A model generated the notes under the pieces. The model was not told where the DNA came from. It saw only the letters and a list, made by a program, of their open reading frames with translations, and searched no databases. 64,000 bases of DNA from Falsirhodobacter halotolerans (GTDB lineage: Bacteria > Pseudomonadota > Alphaproteobacteria > Rhodobacterales > Rhodobacteraceae). The translations under genes and the position numbers were made by a program. This document shows positions 18,562 through 39,511 of this stretch, one piece after another (the stretch's first letter is position 1; each line of letters begins with the position of its first letter). Location: contig NZ_JALJAZ010000001.1 in the NCBI RefSeq assembly GCF_022899245.1, positions 2,205,001-2,269,000 of the forward strand, in the 5' to 3' direction.

Positions 18562-18957
18562 TCAATTGGCCGGACGCGGCGGCATGCGATCACGCATCCG
18601 CTGGACCGCCGCGTCGTATTCCTCCTGGCTGACGGCCCCGTCCTTGTCGGTGTCCACGCGTTCGATCATGCGGTCGGCATGGCCTTCGGGGGCCTTGGAC
18701 AGCTCCTCGATCGACAGAAGGCCGTCGCCGTTGGTGTCCAGCTTTTCCATCATCTTCTCCGCACGGTCCTGCGCGCGGGCGGTGGCATGGGCGGTCAGTT
18801 CCTCGGGCGTGATGCGGCCATCGCCGTTCGTATCCAGTTCGGAAAACGGCGGAAGGCGCGGGCCGTGCCCCCCGGGTCCGGGAGGGGCGGCCAGCGCGCC
18901 CGACAGCCCGGCGGCGGTCACGGAGATGAAGGTCAGTCCGGCAAGAAAACGGTTCAT
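18562..18957 (-). CDS. Secreted EF-hand calcium-binding protein
   Basis: A 131-residue protein with a signal peptide (residues 1-23, cut after LAA) and three canonical EF-hand loops: DTNGDGRITPEE (42-53), DTNGDGLLSIEE (74-85) and DTDKDGAVSQEE (102-113). All carry the expected D-x-N/D-x-D-G ligands and terminal glutamate, so calcium binding is likely. It is probably periplasmic. GGAGC stands six bases before the ATG. It may be a target or accessory of the sigma factor operon immediately downstream; that link is inference. Confidence 0.88.
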   Translation of the reverse strand: MNRFLAGLTFISVTAAGLSGALAAPPGPGGHGPRLPPFSELDTNGDGRITPEELTAHATARAQDRAEKMMEKLDTNGDGLLSIEELSKAPEGHADRMIERVDTDKDGAVSQEEYDAAVQRMRDRMPPRPAN

Positions 18958-19521: not shown

Positions 19522-20558
19522 CAGAAGGGCGCCGGCCAGGCGCGGTGGGCCTGATCCAGATCGGCCAGAACCTCCTCGTTCAACGTCAGGTTCACGGAAT
19601 CGAGGCAGGTCTTCAGCTGGTCCAGCCGCGTGGCCCCGATGATCGGCAGGCAGGGGAACGGCCGCGTGCGATAGAAGGCCAGCGCCATCTGCGTCGGATC
19701 CAGCCCGTGCGTCTTGGCGATGCCCAGATAGGCGGCCACCGCTTCGAACACGAAGGGCGAGATGCGGCCCCCAAGGTTCGGCGTGCGTTCGCGCCGCGAC
19801 CCGGCGGGGATGACATCGCCCGCGTATTTGCCGGTCAGAAGCCCCGTCGCCAGCGGGGAATAGCCCAGAAGCGGCATGTTCTCCAACGCGGCGAATTCGG
19901 CCCAGTCGCTGTCGAACTGGCGGCACAGCAGCGAATATTCGTTCTGCACCGTCGCCATGCGCGGCAATCCGTGCTGATCGGCCAACCGCAGCCAGGCCGC
20001 CGCCCCCCATACGGTGTCGTTCGACAGGGCGATGTGGCGGATCTTGCCTTCGTCCTTCAGGCGCTGCGCCTCCTGCAGGATGTCCAGCATTTCCGCCTCG
20101 ATCGCGGCCTTGTCGGTCGGCGGGACGTATTCCCAGATCTTGCGGAAGTGATACGAGCCGCGATTGGGCCAGTGCATCTGATAGATGTCGATGTAATCGG
20201 TCTGAAGCCGGCCCAGCGACGCCTCCACCGCCTGCCGCATCCGGGCGGGGGTGATCGGCGCGCCGCCGGTGGCCGCACTGCCCTCGCCCGTGACCTTGGT
20301 GGCGAGGATCATCCGGTCCCGCCCGCCCTTGGCCGCAAGCCATGTGCCGATGACCCGCTCCGTATCGCCCACCGTTTCGGCGGACACGGGGTTGGTCGGA
20401 TACATCTCGGCCGTGTCGAGGAAGTTGACCCCGTGATCCAGCGCCATTGCGATCTGGTCGTGGCCTTCGCCTTCGGAATTCTGCGTGCCCCAGGTCATCG
20501 TGCCCAGACACAGTTCGGACACCATCAGTCCGGTGGTTCCCAGAGGAATCTGTTTCAT
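19521..20558 (-). CDS. Aldo/keto reductase (Tas-like)
   Basis: A 345-residue NADPH-dependent oxidoreductase of the AKR TIM-barrel family, close in layout to E. coli Tas. The catalytic tetrad is recognisable: D48 and Y53 in FLDTAEMYP, the lysine in LATKV and the histidine in YQMHWPNRG. The C-terminal segment [12 protein letters not shown] is the cofactor-binding end of the fold. The substrate is unknown. It is the first gene of a coupled pair with the lipocalin and is divergent from metG. Confidence 0.92.
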
Positions 20559-26075: not shown

Positions 26076-27488
26076 TCACAGCCAGCGGGCGGCCTGCGCC
26101 AGATCGTCCCGGAACAGCGCGGTTTCCCGCCGCGCAAGCTCCGCATCCGGCAGCCGCAGAAGATAGGACGGGTGCACGGTGATCAGGACCGGCGTCCCGT
26201 CCGCCCGCGCCTCGATCCCGCCGCGACGTTTCAAAAGGCCCGCCCCCGTCCCGGTCAGCGCCGCCAGCGCCGTGGCCCCCATCGCCACGATCAACCGGGG
26301 CCGGATCAGCTCCAACTCCTGCTCCAACCAGGGGGCGCAGGCGCGCACCTCGCCTGCGTCGGGCTTCTGGTGGATGCGCCGCTTGCCGCGCGGGGCGAAC
26401 TTGAAGTGTTTGACCGCGTTGGTGATGTAAAGACGCGCGCGGTCCAGCCCCGCCTCGGCGGCGGCGGTATCGAACATCTGCCCCGCGGGGCCGACGAAAG
26501 GGGTGCCCGCCAGATCCTCCTGATCGCCCGGCTGTTCACCCACCATCACGATGGGCGCGTCGGACGGGCCGATGCCGAACACGGTCTGCGTGGCGGGTCC
26601 GTGCAGGGGGCAGCGGGTGCACTGGGCCGCCCTCGCGCGCAGCGCGTCCAGCGTGCCGGCCTGCGGCACGGGACGTTCGGGCACCGCCATCGTGCGTGCG
26701 ACCGCACGGCGGCGGGCGGGGGCCTCCTCGGCCTCGCGCGCGTGCATGTCGCGCACGCGGGTTTCGGCGCTGCGGATCAGGCCGGGGATCAGGTCGGCCT
26801 CGGGCAGGTTCTTCCAGTATTTCTTCGGCATTTCGGCCTGCATCGCCTTCACCATGACGCGGGCGGGATTGAAGATGCTGGCGTAATAGGTGCGCCACAA
26901 CGCCTCGGTCGCGTCGGGCGGCGGCGGGGTGCGGTCGTCGGTTTCCACGAAACGCAACGTGCCGTCGAACCGGGCGGTGATCTCGGGCGTGGCGATCACC
27001 CAATCCATGTCGCCGAACCGCTTGGCAAAGAACGGAGTGCCGCGTTCGACGATCCGGTGATCCGGTTCGAACCAGGCGGCGAAGGCGCGGCGGGCGCCAT
27101 CGGTCCCCACATCGCGGAACCGGACGAAGGCGTGCATCTTGTGGATGTCGCGGCGCACGGCTTTGGCCTGCTCCATCACCGTGCGCACGCCCGCATCGCT
27201 GCGATCGCCCCAGACCAGCCCATCGTTCAGGCGCAGAACCAGATCATGGGCGCGATTGAACCGTTCGGGGTCGGAATGGCACAGGGCGGTCTCGATCTCG
27301 GCCAGCGCCTCACGCGGGATCTTCAACCGGCGGGGCGCATCGGTGGGGGCATCGTCGAAATCCAGTGTCGGGGCCGCCGGTCCCACATGCCAGCGCACCT
27401 GATCCGGGCGGACGCCCCGTGCGGCCAGATCGCGCACCGCGTCCCGCCACGCCGCCACCGTTCCAAGGACCGGCAGCGCGATGTCCAT
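26076..27488 (-). CDS. udgX: DUF4130 (SAM_7-linked) - UdgX uracil-DNA glycosylase fusion
   Basis: A 470-residue two-domain protein. Residues 1-235 are DUF4130, with AVRRDIHKMHAFVRFRDV and WRTYYASIFNPARVMVKAMQ. Residues about 275-470 are a UdgX-type family 4-like uracil-DNA glycosylase: GEQPGDQEDLAG (317-328), the loop KRRIH (369-373) and HPSYLLR (439-445). In mycobacterial UdgX the KRRIH histidine, here H373, forms a covalent bond with the abasic sugar after uracil removal. Iron-sulphur ligands appear to be C290, C293 and C384, with H360 where family 4 enzymes have cysteine. Its start overlaps the radical SAM gene stop by one base, so the pair is an operon. Confidence 0.92.
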   Translation of the reverse strand: MDIALPVLGTVAAWRDAVRDLAARGVRPDQVRWHVGPAAPTLDFDDAPTDAPRRLKIPREALAEIETALCHSDPERFNRAHDLVLRLNDGLVWGDRSDAGVRTVMEQAKAVRRDIHKMHAFVRFRDVGTDGARRAFAAWFEPDHRIVERGTPFFAKRFGDMDWVIATPEITARFDGTLRFVETDDRTPPPPDATEALWRTYYASIFNPARVMVKAMQAEMPKKYWKNLPEADLIPGLIRSAETRVRDMHAREAEEAPARRRAVARTMAVPERPVPQAGTLDALRARAAQCTRCPLHGPATQTVFGIGPSDAPIVMVGEQPGDQEDLAGTPFVGPAGQMFDTAAAEAGLDRARLYITNAVKHFKFAPRGKRRIHQKPDAGEVRACAPWLEQELELIRPRLIVAMGATALAALTGTGAGLLKRRGGIEARADGTPVLITVHPSYLLRLPDAELARRETALFRDDLAQAARWL

Positions 27489-28711
27489 CAGAACAGACTC
27501 AGCTGTTCGGGCGGGGCGGCGAACCGCGCCCGCAGATGCGCATCGTCAAGGCCACGCGCGCTCCATCCCGGCATGGTGATGAACGGCTTGGCCTTTTTCA
27601 GCACCGCGCCCATCGCCGCCAGATCCTCGTATCGGAGGGTGCGATGGCGGCGGGTGGCCAGCACCCGGTCCACCGTCCGCGTGCCAAATCCCGGCACGCG
27701 CAGCAGCGTCTCGCGCGGGGCGCGGTTGATGTCCACGGGAAACGCCTCCCGATGCGCGATGGCCCAGGCGGTCTTGGGATCGAGATCCAGATCGAGCATT
27801 CCTTTCGACGCGATCTCCTCCACCTCGAACCCATAAAAGCGCAACAGCCAGTCCGCCTGATAGAGGCGGTGTTCGCGCAAAAGCGGGGGCGTCTTCAACG
27901 GCAGTATCTTCGACGCGTCCGGAATGGGTGAAAAGGCGGAATAATAGACCCGGCTGAGGCCGTAATTGGCATAGAGATTGGACGATTGCCCCAGCACCGC
28001 CCGATCGTCCGCCGCATCCGCGCCCACGATCATCTGCGTCGATTGCCCCGCGGGGGCGAACCGCGCCTTCTTGCGGCCCGTATGCGTCACCTCGCGCGAT
28101 TCCTCGCGCTTCAGGCGGACGGCCCCCATGGCGCGGCGAATGTCGCGGGCGTTCTTTTCCGGGGCCAGCGCGCTCAGCCCCTGCTCGGTCGGCATCTCGA
28201 TATTGATCGACAGCCGGTCGGCGTAACGCCCCGCCTCGTCGATCAGTTCGGGCGAGGCGTCGGGGATCGTCTTCAAATGGATGTAGCCGCGAAAATTCTC
28301 CCGCTCGCGCAGGGTTTTTGCGATCCGCACCATGTCGCCCATCGTTTCATCGGGCGACTTGATGATGCCCGAGGACAAAAACAACCCTTCGATATAGTTC
28401 CGACGATAGAATTCGATGGTCAGGCGCACCACCTCATCCACGGAAAAGCGCGCCCGCTCCACCTTCGAGGACACGCGATTGATGCAATAGGCGCAGTCAT
28501 AGATGCAGAAATTCGTCATCAGGATTTTCAGCAGACTGATGCAGCGCCCGTCGGGGGCATAGGCGTGGCAGATGCCGGACCCGCCCGAACTGCCCACGCC
28601 CTTCCCATCGCGGGAATCGCGTTTCTGCCCCCCGCTGCTGGCGCAGGAGGCGTCATATTTCGCGGCATCCGACAGGAGCGCGAGCTTGTCCATCAACGTT
28701 CTTTGCGCCAT
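27488..28711 (-). CDS. UDG-linked radical SAM protein with HhH segment and clamp-binding-like tail
   Basis: A 407-residue radical SAM protein of the type named putative DNA modification/repair (linked to UDG). The cluster motif is CIYDCAYC (C69, C73, C76); extra cysteines at 23, 48 and 57 could bind a second cluster. Residues about 330-355 form a helix-hairpin-helix (RAPRETLLRVPGFGTRTVDRVL), a DNA-binding fold. The last five residues are QLSLF, matching the sliding-clamp-binding consensus QLxLF. The reaction is unknown. A LexA box lies directly upstream. The ATG at 28711 may be read from a leaderless transcript; an alternative start is M7 (28693). It is the first gene of the operon with udgX. 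Confidence 0.92.
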   Translation of the reverse strand: MAQRTLMDKLALLSDAAKYDASCASSGGQKRDSRDGKGVGSSGGSGICHAYAPDGRCISLLKILMTNFCIYDCAYCINRVSSKVERARFSVDEVVRLTIEFYRRNYIEGLFLSSGIIKSPDETMGDMVRIAKTLRERENFRGYIHLKTIPDASPELIDEAGRYADRLSINIEMPTEQGLSALAPEKNARDIRRAMGAVRLKREESREVTHTGRKKARFAPAGQSTQMIVGADAADDRAVLGQSSNLYANYGLSRVYYSAFSPIPDASKILPLKTPPLLREHRLYQADWLLRFYGFEVEEIASKGMLDLDLDPKTAWAIAHREAFPVDINRAPRETLLRVPGFGTRTVDRVLATRRHRTLRYEDLAAMGAVLKKAKPFITMPGWSARGLDDAHLRARFAAPPEQLSLF

Positions 28712-28713
28712 GG

Positions 28714-28746
28714 GTTCAGTATATGTTCACGGGGAACGTTAAGCAA
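28714..28746 (-). promoter_or_regulatory. LexA (SOS) box overlapping the promoter of the radical SAM-udgX operon
   Basis: GTTCAGTATATGTTC at 28714-28728 is a perfect GTTC-N7-GTTC, the established LexA operator of alphaproteobacteria such as Rhodobacter. On the minus strand the promoter reads TTGCTT (28746-28741), 17 bases, then TATACT (28723-28718), so the box covers the -10. The ATG begins at 28711, about where transcription should start. The box is by direct reading; LexA binding is inferred. Confidence 0.75.
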
Positions 28747-37735: not shown

Positions 37736-39511
37736 TCAAAGACCGTATATCAAGGGGATGATGGCCGCCGCCACGATCCCCATCAGCACGTTCAACGGCA
37801 CGCCCACGCGCAGGAAATCCCCGAACGTGTATCCGCCGGGGCCATAGACCAGCAGGTTGCACTGATACCCGATGGGCGTGGCGAACCCGAAGGACGCGCC
37901 CAGCATGACGGCGATCAGGATGGGGCGCGGGTCCACGCCCAGACCCAGCGCCAGCGCGATGGCGACCGGCGTCACCACCACGGCCACCGCGTTGTTCGAC
38001 AGCAGTTCCGTCAGAAGCGAGGTCAGGGCATAGACGAAAAAGATCAGCGCCCAACCCGGCAGCCCCACCATATAGGGCTGGGCGTAGCCGACGATCAGCT
38101 CCACCGCGCCCGAATGTTCCAACCCCGCGCCGACCGCGATCATGCCGAACAGCATCCCCAAGAGGCGCCCGTCGATGGAGGCAAACGCCTCGTCTGCGTC
38201 GATGCAGCGGGTGACAAGGACGATGGCCACGCCGATCAGGGCGAGGATCTCGATCGGGGCGACGTTGAAGGTCGACAGGGTCACGATCCCCGCCAAAACC
38301 CCGATGACGATGGGCGCGCGCTTGCGCCGGAAGGGGCGTTCGGTCGGGTGGCTGATCTCCGCCATCTCCATATCCGCCGCCAGACGCTGGATGTCGCCGA
38401 TCGGCCCTTCCAGCAGCAGCGTGTCGCCCACGGCCACGACCAGATCGTCCAGCGCGCGGCCGATGTTCTGGTTGCGGCGATGCGCGGCCAGGACATAGAC
38501 GCCATAGCGGCGGCGCAACCGCATCTCGCCCAGACGCCGCCCGATCATGCGGCAGCCGGGGGTGATCAGCACCTCCACCGTCTCGGTGCGGACCGAACTC
38601 AGCTTGTCGACCGAGCGGAGGTCCTTGTGGTCCTGCAGGCTCAGCAACTCCTGCATCGGGGTGCGCAGCACCACGCGGTCGCCCGCCTCAAGGATCGCCG
38701 CCCCCATGTCGCGGCGCAGCGAGATGTCGCCCCGCAGCACATCCACCGTGCGCACGCCGCCCCGCTTGAACAGGTCGATCTCGGTCACCTTCTGCCCCAC
38801 CAGGGCGGAATCGTCGGGGATCGCCACTTCGGTGAAGAACTTCATCTTCGTCCGGTTGCCCAGAAGCGCGCTCATGGACTCGCGGCGCGGCAGAAGCCAG
38901 CGGCCCACGGTGGCCAGATAGATCAGCCCCGCGATGGCGATGGGCAGGCCGACGGGCGTGATCTCGAACATGCCGAAGGGGGCCAGCCCCGCCTGCCGGG
39001 CCACGCCGTCCACCACAAGGTTCGTCGAGGTGCCGACCAGCGTCATCGTGCCGCCCAGGATGGACAGATAGGACAGCGGGATCAGCAGCTTCGACGGCGC
39101 GGTGCCCATTGTGTGGGCCAGTTGGATGAACACCGGCAGGAAGACGACGACCACCGGCGTGTTGTTGACGAAGGCCGACAGCAGCACCACCCCCACCGCC
39201 AGAACCGCCACCGTGTGCGTGGGATGGGTCCGCACCCAATGGTCGGCCATGCGGGTGATGCTGTCCAGGGTGCCGGTCCGCACCAGCGCCCCCACCACGA
39301 TGAACATCAGCGCGATGGTCCAGGGCGCGTTGTTGGACAGGATGTCGCGCGCGGCGGTGATGGGCAGGATGCCCAGCACCAGCATGACCGCCGCCCCGGC
39401 GATGGCCGTCACCTCGACCGGGAAGGTCTCGGTCACGAACAGCACCAGCATCACAAGCAGGATCGCAAGCGCGGCCCAAGGCATGACATCCGCCGACATT
39501 TCAAAGATCAC
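37736..39511 (-). CDS. SLC13-family permease with two TrkA-C domains
   Basis: A 591-residue transporter of the divalent anion:Na+ symporter group. The N-terminal helices include SAFVNNTPVVVVFLPV and GTSTNLVVDG, the paired SNT-type motifs; the C-terminal half repeats them as LLSNNAVAVVVTPVA and FATPIGYQCN. Between the halves (about residues 210-385) lie two TrkA-C domains, which in this family sense ligands. The likely substrate is sulphate, phosphate or a dicarboxylate. Its start overlaps the YmdB-like gene stop by 11 bases. Confidence 0.92.
   Translation of the reverse strand: MIFEMSADVMPWAALAILLVMLVLFVTETFPVEVTAIAGAAVMLVLGILPITAARDILSNNAPWTIALMFIVVGALVRTGTLDSITRMADHWVRTHPTHTVAVLAVGVVLLSAFVNNTPVVVVFLPVFIQLAHTMGTAPSKLLIPLSYLSILGGTMTLVGTSTNLVVDGVARQAGLAPFGMFEITPVGLPIAIAGLIYLATVGRWLLPRRESMSALLGNRTKMKFFTEVAIPDDSALVGQKVTEIDLFKRGGVRTVDVLRGDISLRRDMGAAILEAGDRVVLRTPMQELLSLQDHKDLRSVDKLSSVRTETVEVLITPGCRMIGRRLGEMRLRRRYGVYVLAAHRRNQNIGRALDDLVVAVGDTLLLEGPIGDIQRLAADMEMAEISHPTERPFRRKRAPIVIGVLAGIVTLSTFNVAPIEILALIGVAIVLVTRCIDADEAFASIDGRLLGMLFGMIAVGAGLEHSGAVELIVGYAQPYMVGLPGWALIFFVYALTSLLTELLSNNAVAVVVTPVAIALALGLGVDPRPILIAVMLGASFGFATPIGYQCNLLVYGPGGYTFGDFLRVGVPLNVLMGIVAAAIIPLIYGL

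Follow-up and report, generated by a model that had tools for sequence, protein, structure and literature searches.

A conserved LexA-type operator and a candidate clamp-binding tail in a radical SAM and DUF4130-UdgX operon of Falsirhodobacter halotolerans

The DNA considered here is a stretch of 64,000 nucleotides of the α-proteobacterium Falsirhodobacter halotolerans (NCBI RefSeq assembly GCF_022899245.1, contig NZ_JALJAZ010000001.1, positions 2,205,001 to 2,269,000 of the forward strand), hereafter the window, in which two genes on the minus strand form an operon preceded by a LexA-type box. The first, at 28711-27488, encodes a radical S-adenosylmethionine (SAM) protein of 407 amino acids, and the second, at 27488-26076, a 470-residue fusion of a DUF4130 region with a UdgX domain. 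An earlier reading of this DNA made from its letters alone (the sequence-only reading) had claimed that the two genes overlap by one base, and the open reading frames bear this out, the shared base being the A of TGA/ATG. It had further proposed a DNA repair or modification system under LexA control, in which radical chemistry might act on, or release, the covalent adduct between UdgX and DNA.

All three curated families that describe these proteins were matched above their cut-offs. The 407-residue protein scored 590.8 bits against TIGR03916 (rSAM_link_UDG; cut-off 343.5) and carries the CX3CX2C motif at C69/C73/C76. The 470-residue chain scored 172.3 bits against TIGR03915 (cut-off 112.25) over residues 9-231 (26796-27464, minus strand), and 322.9 bits against the UdgX model TIGR03914 (cut-off 189.95) over residues 233-465 (26094-26792, minus strand). 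Pfam assignments agree (Radical_SAM, DUF4130 and UDG, with DUF4130 at 122.9 bits against a cut-off of 27). A helix-hairpin-helix (HhH) occupies about residues 325-356 of the radical SAM protein, HHH_3 scoring below the Pfam cut-off, and by sequence this protein has no close solved relative (best PDB match at E 0.087). A survey of 50 of the 59 script-called genes adjoining the module in distant loci revealed no third operon partner, the commonest Pfam family being present in only 3 of the 50, and the module therefore looks like two genes. Neither protein matched any PADLOC family at E up to 0.01 in a search for a role in anti-phage defence.

The first gene is preceded by an exact GTTC-N7-GTTC site, GTTCAGTATATGTTC, at 28714-28728 on the plus strand, which ends 2 bp before the ATG at 28711. 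A perfect match to this pattern had been claimed at that very position and an exact search recovered it; what had to be amended was its orientation, since in the direction of the operon the site is GAACATATACTGAAC, that is, GAAC-N7-GAAC. The bare site means little: in the window its frequency is near chance, with four exact matches against 1.54 expected, a count reached by 8 of 100 shuffles, and in the whole genome the pattern occurs 111 times and its reversed form 53 times. The other three window matches lie at 18826-18840, 19776-19790 and 37994-38008. Whatever weight the box carries rests on its position and conservation.

Conservation was assessed in two draws of genomes and in the genus. 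The family draw comprised 149 evenly sampled genomes, with the gene in 27 and above the family cut-off in 26; the class draw comprised 289 genomes, 18 of them above the cut-off, and contributed 17 further copies, including one from the same family and one fragment (L046). Within the genus the gene is present in all 7 genomes. A family match, whether above or below the cut-off, was also obtained in the control genome of Caulobacter vibrioides, and Phaeobacter inhibens is a further carrier of the operon. The box count excludes matches below the cut-off and a gene split into two fragments (L027/L028), of which L027 showed no box. The exact box was found in 25 of the 26 copies of the family sample (own copy included), starting no more than 51 bases before the first model-aligned residue, in all six congeners, and in 16 of the 17 further class copies, no more than 56 bases before that residue. 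The scan of orthologous operons for the same box that the sequence-only reading had proposed was thus positive in 47 of 49 α-proteobacterial copies. The exceptions are L024 of the family sample, which has a copy with one mismatch, and L031, which has no box. For comparison, the remaining sequence of the family loci, about 100 kb, contains four boxes. The 49 orthologues share ancestry and so do not represent 49 independent events, though their spacers and flanks differ.

Orthologues outside the α-proteobacteria were searched for the LexA sites of other lineages. GAAC-N4-GTTC and CTGT-N8-ACAG are LexA operator motifs of their respective clades. The motifs GTTC-N7-GTTC, GGTT-N10-AACC, CTAA-N5-TTAG and GGA-N5-TCC are given in the accessible portion of PMC8565304. 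Among 75 loci that are Bacillota or unassigned, 31 have GAAC-N4-GTTC upstream of the gene, where 0.13 would be expected from the remaining sequence of the loci, and only one has the α-proteobacterial pattern. CTAA-N5-TTAG preceded the gene in 3 of 8 Bacteroidota loci (0.07 expected), and CTGT-N8-ACAG in both β-proteobacteria of a set of three, whose remaining member, Acinetobacter, lacks it. The Geobacter-type site was found in none of three Geobacter/Elusimicrobia loci, and GGA-N5-TCC in none of the 8 Bacteroidota loci, with no enrichment in the other sets. LexA-type operators thus precede this gene in at least three phyla, and the presence of differing clade operators before the same gene argues for selection for SOS control. 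The near-chance frequency of the bare pattern in the window might suggest that the match arose by chance and that the operon lies outside the LexA regulon; this is extremely improbable given a box kept at nearly the same place in 47 of 49 orthologues and the LexA operators proper to other clades upstream of the gene. The conserved placement and the clade-specific operators likewise support the claim that the operon stands under an α-proteobacterial LexA operator, and SOS control through LexA is, on this comparative evidence, very likely.

The box also appears to be part of the promoter. In 37 upstream regions with the box in GAAC orientation, its spacer resembles a -10 element (T in 35, A in 37, T in 27, A in 18, A in 17 and T in 24), and TTG recurs 17 bp upstream of these columns (27, 27 and 21 of 37). 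By these columns the -10 element of the operon would be TATACT (28718-28723, minus strand), inside the operator, and the -35 element, purely by inference, TTGCTT (28741-28746, minus strand), 17 bp before it, with three of six bases fitting the consensus. These counts derive from 39 of 48 regions, seven (L006, L012, L014, L018, L019, L021 and L030) having been left out because they read RYD in place of the KYD on which the regions were anchored, and L024 and L031 as lacking the exact box; the 47 of 49 above are unaffected. A generic promoter scan gave no match at the operon promoter, so that the -35/-10 assignment comes from comparison alone. As the -10 element falls within the box spacer, LexA would cover it. 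In 20 of the 39 regions two bases separate the box from the first in-frame start codon; for the operon, transcription is predicted to start near the A of the ATG, and the mRNA could be leaderless.

The second gene was examined in 140 loci: 26 from the family (own included), 16 from the class, 6 from the genus, 12 from plasmid or phage records and 80 from named distant genomes, the last ranked by similarity to a clostridial query and consisting mostly of Clostridia. The three fragments (L027, L028 and L046) do not enter this set. A partner was sought on the same strand up to about 4 kb away. In 44 loci it was a DUF4130-UdgX fusion and in 92 a DUF4130 protein lacking UdgX, so that DUF4130 accompanies the enzyme in 136 of 140; four loci had neither form. 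The fused form was found in 26/26 family, 6/6 genus, 8/16 class and 0/80 distant loci. Of the eight unfused class partners, seven are complete at their end in the locus read, and the eighth is truncated. At least seven α-proteobacterial loci without UdgX, from four families, were thus recovered, among them L030 from the window's own family, and six of these have the exact LexA box. In a few loci the DUF4130 gene is not immediately next to the enzyme gene, e.g. in Hymenobacter (L195, L202 and L210), and in three distant loci (L150, L166 and L173) DUF4130 was not found, nor does the gene after the enzyme in L166 match it. The fourth locus without it, L137, from a Gemmatirosa kalamazoonensis plasmid, encodes a diverged relative that combines 41% identity with the lack of both DUF4130 and the extra cysteine/histidine set described below, and may belong to a paralogous family. 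All 8 Bacteroidota loci, seven named (L132, L133, L156, L195, L202, L206 and L210) and one faecal contig assigned here, have DUF4130 without UdgX.

Viral sequences yielded no copy when scanned with the fusion protein and two loci when scanned with a radical SAM alignment. Ten phage records were matched, eight of them unannotated faecal contigs and two from a 240 kb Acinetobacter record; the latter was rejected as a viral copy, its gene content looking like host DNA.

The UdgX part of the window's fusion protein aligns with a solved UdgX structure, presumably that of Mycobacterium smegmatis, including motif A (GEQPGD at residue 317) and the R-loop KRRIH (369-373); motif B reads HPSYLLR at 439. 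Among the 44 UdgX-bearing partners, the R-loop KRRxH is present in 38 and HPSY as motif B in 34. By model score, motif A and R-loop this is a UdgX domain, and it is predicted to capture abasic sites covalently. The proposal that the resulting UdgX-DNA adduct is the target of the radical SAM enzyme, or is set free by it, agrees with the fused partner in all 26 family-sample loci and all six congeners, and with the R-loop in most UdgX-bearing partners. Against it, DUF4130 comes without a UdgX domain in 92 of the 140 loci (among them Bacillota, Bacteroidota and other groups, with at least seven from α-proteobacteria), UdgX genes elsewhere in those genomes not having been sought. UdgX is therefore not required as a partner in the operon, and the adduct hypothesis drops out as a general explanation and is very unlikely. 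Repair or modification of DNA by radical chemistry, the other half of the sequence-only reading, still stands as the best reading of the operon, and the partner that deserves attention is DUF4130 more than UdgX.

Six residues of DUF4130 (R123, F124, F154, R157, R210 and E230) are invariant in all 102 sequences compared. A structural model of residues 1-262 reached a predicted local distance difference test (pLDDT) value of 80.8. Its best match, PAP phosphatase (Z 7.6, root-mean-square deviation (rmsd) 3.9, 170 residues aligned), is weak and falls in the tool's common range; RecJ was matched at Z 7.3 (rmsd 3.6, 166 aligned). Foldseek gave a mixed list, with about 21 of 50 rows of DHH types and the rest unrelated (best E 0.04, none at 0.001). 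In the second structural comparison the 50 rows, though weak, agreed with one another: 34 were titled as DHH/DHHA1 types, under which we count RecJ, Cdc45, family II pyrophosphatases, nanoRNases, PAP phosphatase and the C-Ala domain of alanyl-tRNA synthetase; the other 16 were replisome complexes, in which we assume the matched chain to be Cdc45. The DUF4130 profile matched no PDB sequence at E up to 10. The modelled fold provides a lead that DUF4130 could be a DNA-holding, perhaps non-catalytic, relative.

A feature unnoticed in the sequence-only reading is the C-terminus of the radical SAM enzyme, QLSLF (residues 403-407; 27491-27505, minus strand), which fits the consensus for binding to the β sliding clamp. 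In the part of PMC11139829 available to us this consensus is QL(S/D)LF, with the general form Q-phi-x-[L/M]-[F/L] or one residue longer, and clamp partners include polymerases II, III, IV and V, Hda and the clamp-loader delta subunit. We scanned the last 70 residues of the orthologues, allowing A, V, L, I or M as phi. The published form occurs in 111 of 140 tails, against 5.6 expected from shuffled tails and 2.2 from body windows of equal length, and the highest-affinity forms, QLxLF or QLxLxF, in 75 of 140 (0.5 expected in shuffled tails). In control proteins the general motif was found in 1 of 50 neighbours and 3 of 136 DUF4130 partners. Q403 is kept in 137 of the 140 orthologues. Within the α-proteobacteria a slightly looser form lies at most two residues from the C-terminus in 47 of 48 proteins; in the distant set the motif, where found, lies 0 to 43 residues before the end. 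Residues 402-407 were modelled at a pLDDT below 50, as would be expected of a docking peptide. These patterns argue for clamp binding by QLSLF, and the motif strengthens repair or modification of DNA by radical chemistry as the best reading. Among the papers listed in a literature search for this clamp motif none mentions radical SAM, which does not establish its absence from print.

Conservation extends to a second set of residues at the N-terminus. C23, C48, H49 and C57, together with the SAM cysteines, form invariant columns in 43 of 43 aligned sequences. In the larger set, 136 of 140 sequences could be compared at these columns: all have the SAM-cluster cysteines and 135 the extra C/C/H/C set, the Gemmatirosa protein (L137) being the sole exception; L004, L005, L008 and L009 are gapped in many alignment columns, probably through trimming. 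We would guess that C23/C48/H49/C57 build a second site, for a metal or an iron-sulphur cluster. In structural comparison the barrel was matched best by lipoyl synthase (Z 16.4, rmsd 3.1 over 232 residues) and HydE (Z 16.2, rmsd 2.8 over 214 residues), whose Z scores tie within 1. Neither the family nor the structure of spore photoproduct lyase (SplB) is among the family and structure matches listed, an absence that does not exclude membership.

Further members of the putative LexA regulon were sought in 20 stretches of the genome, chosen non-randomly out of the 111 matches, mostly for A+T-rich box spacers and one for umuDC. Six of them have a box directly ahead of coding sequence, namely umuDC, an ImuA-like gene followed by an error-prone DnaE, PcrA/UvrD, RuvB, a DUF3072 gene and, with boxes in tandem, a frame of about 50 residues. 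The ImuA-like match scored 63.9 bits, short of the cut-off of 150, and only part of several of these genes was read. In the other 14 stretches the box lies mostly within genes or near prophage-like genes.

Combining these observations, we propose the following sequence of events. LexA would sit over the -10 element; DNA damage would remove it and both genes would be made. The radical SAM enzyme would then dock on the β sliding clamp through its C-terminal QLSLF and so reach stalled forks, where its helix-hairpin-helix domain would hold it on DNA, its probable substrate. Radical chemistry derived from SAM, probably with the second C23/C48/H49/C57 site, would reverse or process a base lesion that blocks replication, while DUF4130, the usual partner, would probably hold single-stranded DNA or a DNA end. 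In the proteobacterial versions the fused UdgX would add the capture of abasic sites derived from uracil. Of these steps, the data of this analysis support only the release of LexA by damage, together with the anatomy. That the first gene encodes an SOS-induced, clamp-docked radical enzyme of DNA repair is the account we tentatively favour, judging it to fall a little short of an even chance. We regard as distinctly more doubtful the wider claim that this is a widespread SOS system in which a clamp-tethered radical SAM enzyme and a RecJ/Cdc45-like DUF4130 reverse a base lesion at stalled forks, with UdgX as a lineage-specific addition.

Two other accounts draw on much the same evidence. The module might deliberately modify bases, e.g. 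thymine, during SOS, altering mutation or marking DNA, with no repair involved. Boxes before error-prone polymerase genes in the same genome would suit such a role, as would the lipoyl synthase and HydE that top the structural list, whose chemistries are unlike that of photolyase; yet LexA control and the clamp motif fit repair equally, and we encountered no report of such a modification, so that we consider it unlikely. Alternatively, the protein might be a translesion accessory whose clamp motif manages polymerase access, its radical activity being secondary. Here the clamp motif itself and the LexA-type boxes before umuDC and the ImuA-like/error-prone DnaE pair would be in favour, but the SAM-cluster cysteines are invariant wherever aligned (136 of 140) and the extra ones kept in 135. 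Near-invariant cysteines suggest that catalysis is under strong selection, and the accessory role is accordingly improbable, more so than base modification.

Several observations weigh against a clamp-docked repair enzyme under SOS control. LexA was not matched in the genome of F. halotolerans itself, where the stretch expected beside comEC reads N, so that the misses are uninformative as to absence. Over half of the distant loci have no exact operator (44/75 Bacillota or unassigned, 5/8 Bacteroidota and 3/3 Geobacter/Elusimicrobia loci), and the gene is patchy, being present in 27 of 149 family genomes and above the cut-off in 18 of 289 class genomes. The published motif definition misses 29 of 140 tails, and the conservation of a short motif can serve another partner. 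The N-terminal cysteine region was poorly modelled, with pLDDT below 50 at residues 19-48 and 50-53. The DUF4130 fold match is below the tool's trust level, and no DHH/DHHA1 family was among the 22 Pfam families matched by 51 DUF4130 members (E up to 10, HMMER filters on). Finally, the operon may serve a damage-induced modification of RNA or protein, or a regulatory role. On the first of these points, the LexA domain is present in 56 of the 61 genomes from the family and in 6 of the 7 from the genus (all six congeners), and lexA adjoins comEC in all five congeners read. A true loss of lexA was rejected for this genome, congener synteny placing the gene in the stretch that reads N here.

Some of the other boxes of this genome deserve mention in their own right. 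Two overlapping GTTC-N7-GTTC boxes at C1:1351261-1351286 (L090:1492-1517) stand directly before a short frame (38-50 residues) whose end is hydrophobic and which matches nothing in Pfam; its product may be a small membrane protein induced in the SOS response, comparable to SidA, the division inhibitor of Caulobacter. A box 4 bp before ruvB (C1:388983-388997; L104:1494-1508) precedes a gene whose RuvB family was confirmed, and near it a membrane metalloprotease-like gene, recognized by eye, lies between ruvA and ruvB. Another box is found 11 bp before the ATG of a gene with a Pfam match to DUF3072 (C1:1580281-1580295; L092:1502-1516), which may be an unnoticed SOS gene. The boxes at C1:1122211 and C1:1227735 (L087 and L088) are near similar sets of small genes, by eye two copies of a prophage or satellite. 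An identical 15-mer, GTTCAGGCATCGTTC, is shared by the boxes at C1:363213, C1:1152190 and C1:1256208, which suggests a repeated element.

The enzyme family spans several phyla, and the sources seen assign no reaction to it. To our knowledge, few radical SAM enzymes act on DNA damage, and we know of none that rides the replication clamp; if the docking proposed above is true, this would be the first. The conserved candidate clamp-binding tail provides a concrete hypothesis, action at the fork, and a new way to probe the role of the enzyme. To specialists, the clamp motif, the extra cysteines and the UdgX-less core should be of most interest, the adduct idea being unlikely. That core also makes the name given in print, a uracil-glycosylase system, look incomplete beyond the Proteobacteria.

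Of the systems already described, the closest is an SOS operon of COG1573 and COG4277, the latter of which we take to be the radical SAM/HhH family studied here. According to the accessible part of PMC8565304, LexA-type regulation of this operon was inferred in Bacteroidetes, and earlier reports are cited there for Verrucomicrobia and Alphaproteobacteria (Paes da Rocha 2008, Erill 2016). A UDG-family gene and a partner under LexA apparently make up the same operon type, so that the SOS control described above is mostly known. That account assigns the operon to base-excision repair directed at ribonucleotide misincorporation. The Bacteroidota partners examined here lack UdgX, and the uracil-glycosylase label applied to Bacteroidetes in the literature may stem from grouping with fused proteins. 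As far as the account of PMC8565304 was seen, it makes no mention of a clamp motif. Our literature search, confined to one library of papers, found none pairing UdgX with a radical SAM protein or with LexA, one that names DUF4130, and none with the names TIGR03914, TIGR03915 or TIGR03916; these NCBIfam models, which fit the present proteins, are named as putative, and their names give no reaction. The UdgX of M. smegmatis (PMC10359453; PDB 6iod among others), described in the available part of that paper, shares the KRRIH R-loop and the GEQPG motif A, whereas UdgX here is fused behind DUF4130 and has HPSY as motif B instead of HPS(S/A). The same source describes its precise physiological role as largely unknown and suggests that its DNA complexes may be resolved via RecA-dependent pathways or proteases. 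SplB is likewise a radical SAM enzyme linked to DNA repair, and PMC3765255, as far as it was accessible, calls the DUF4130-linked radical SAM proteins SplB-like; the enzyme described here differs from it in the extra cysteines, the HhH and the clamp motif. Lipoyl synthase and HydE are the best structural matches of its barrel, with no NCBIfam family in common among the matches found. Lipoyl synthase carries an N-terminal auxiliary cluster, a likeness to the putative second site here, and the cysteine spacing presumably differs from that of both enzymes. What sets the present enzyme apart from them is the combination of such a barrel with a helix-hairpin-helix and a candidate clamp-binding motif.

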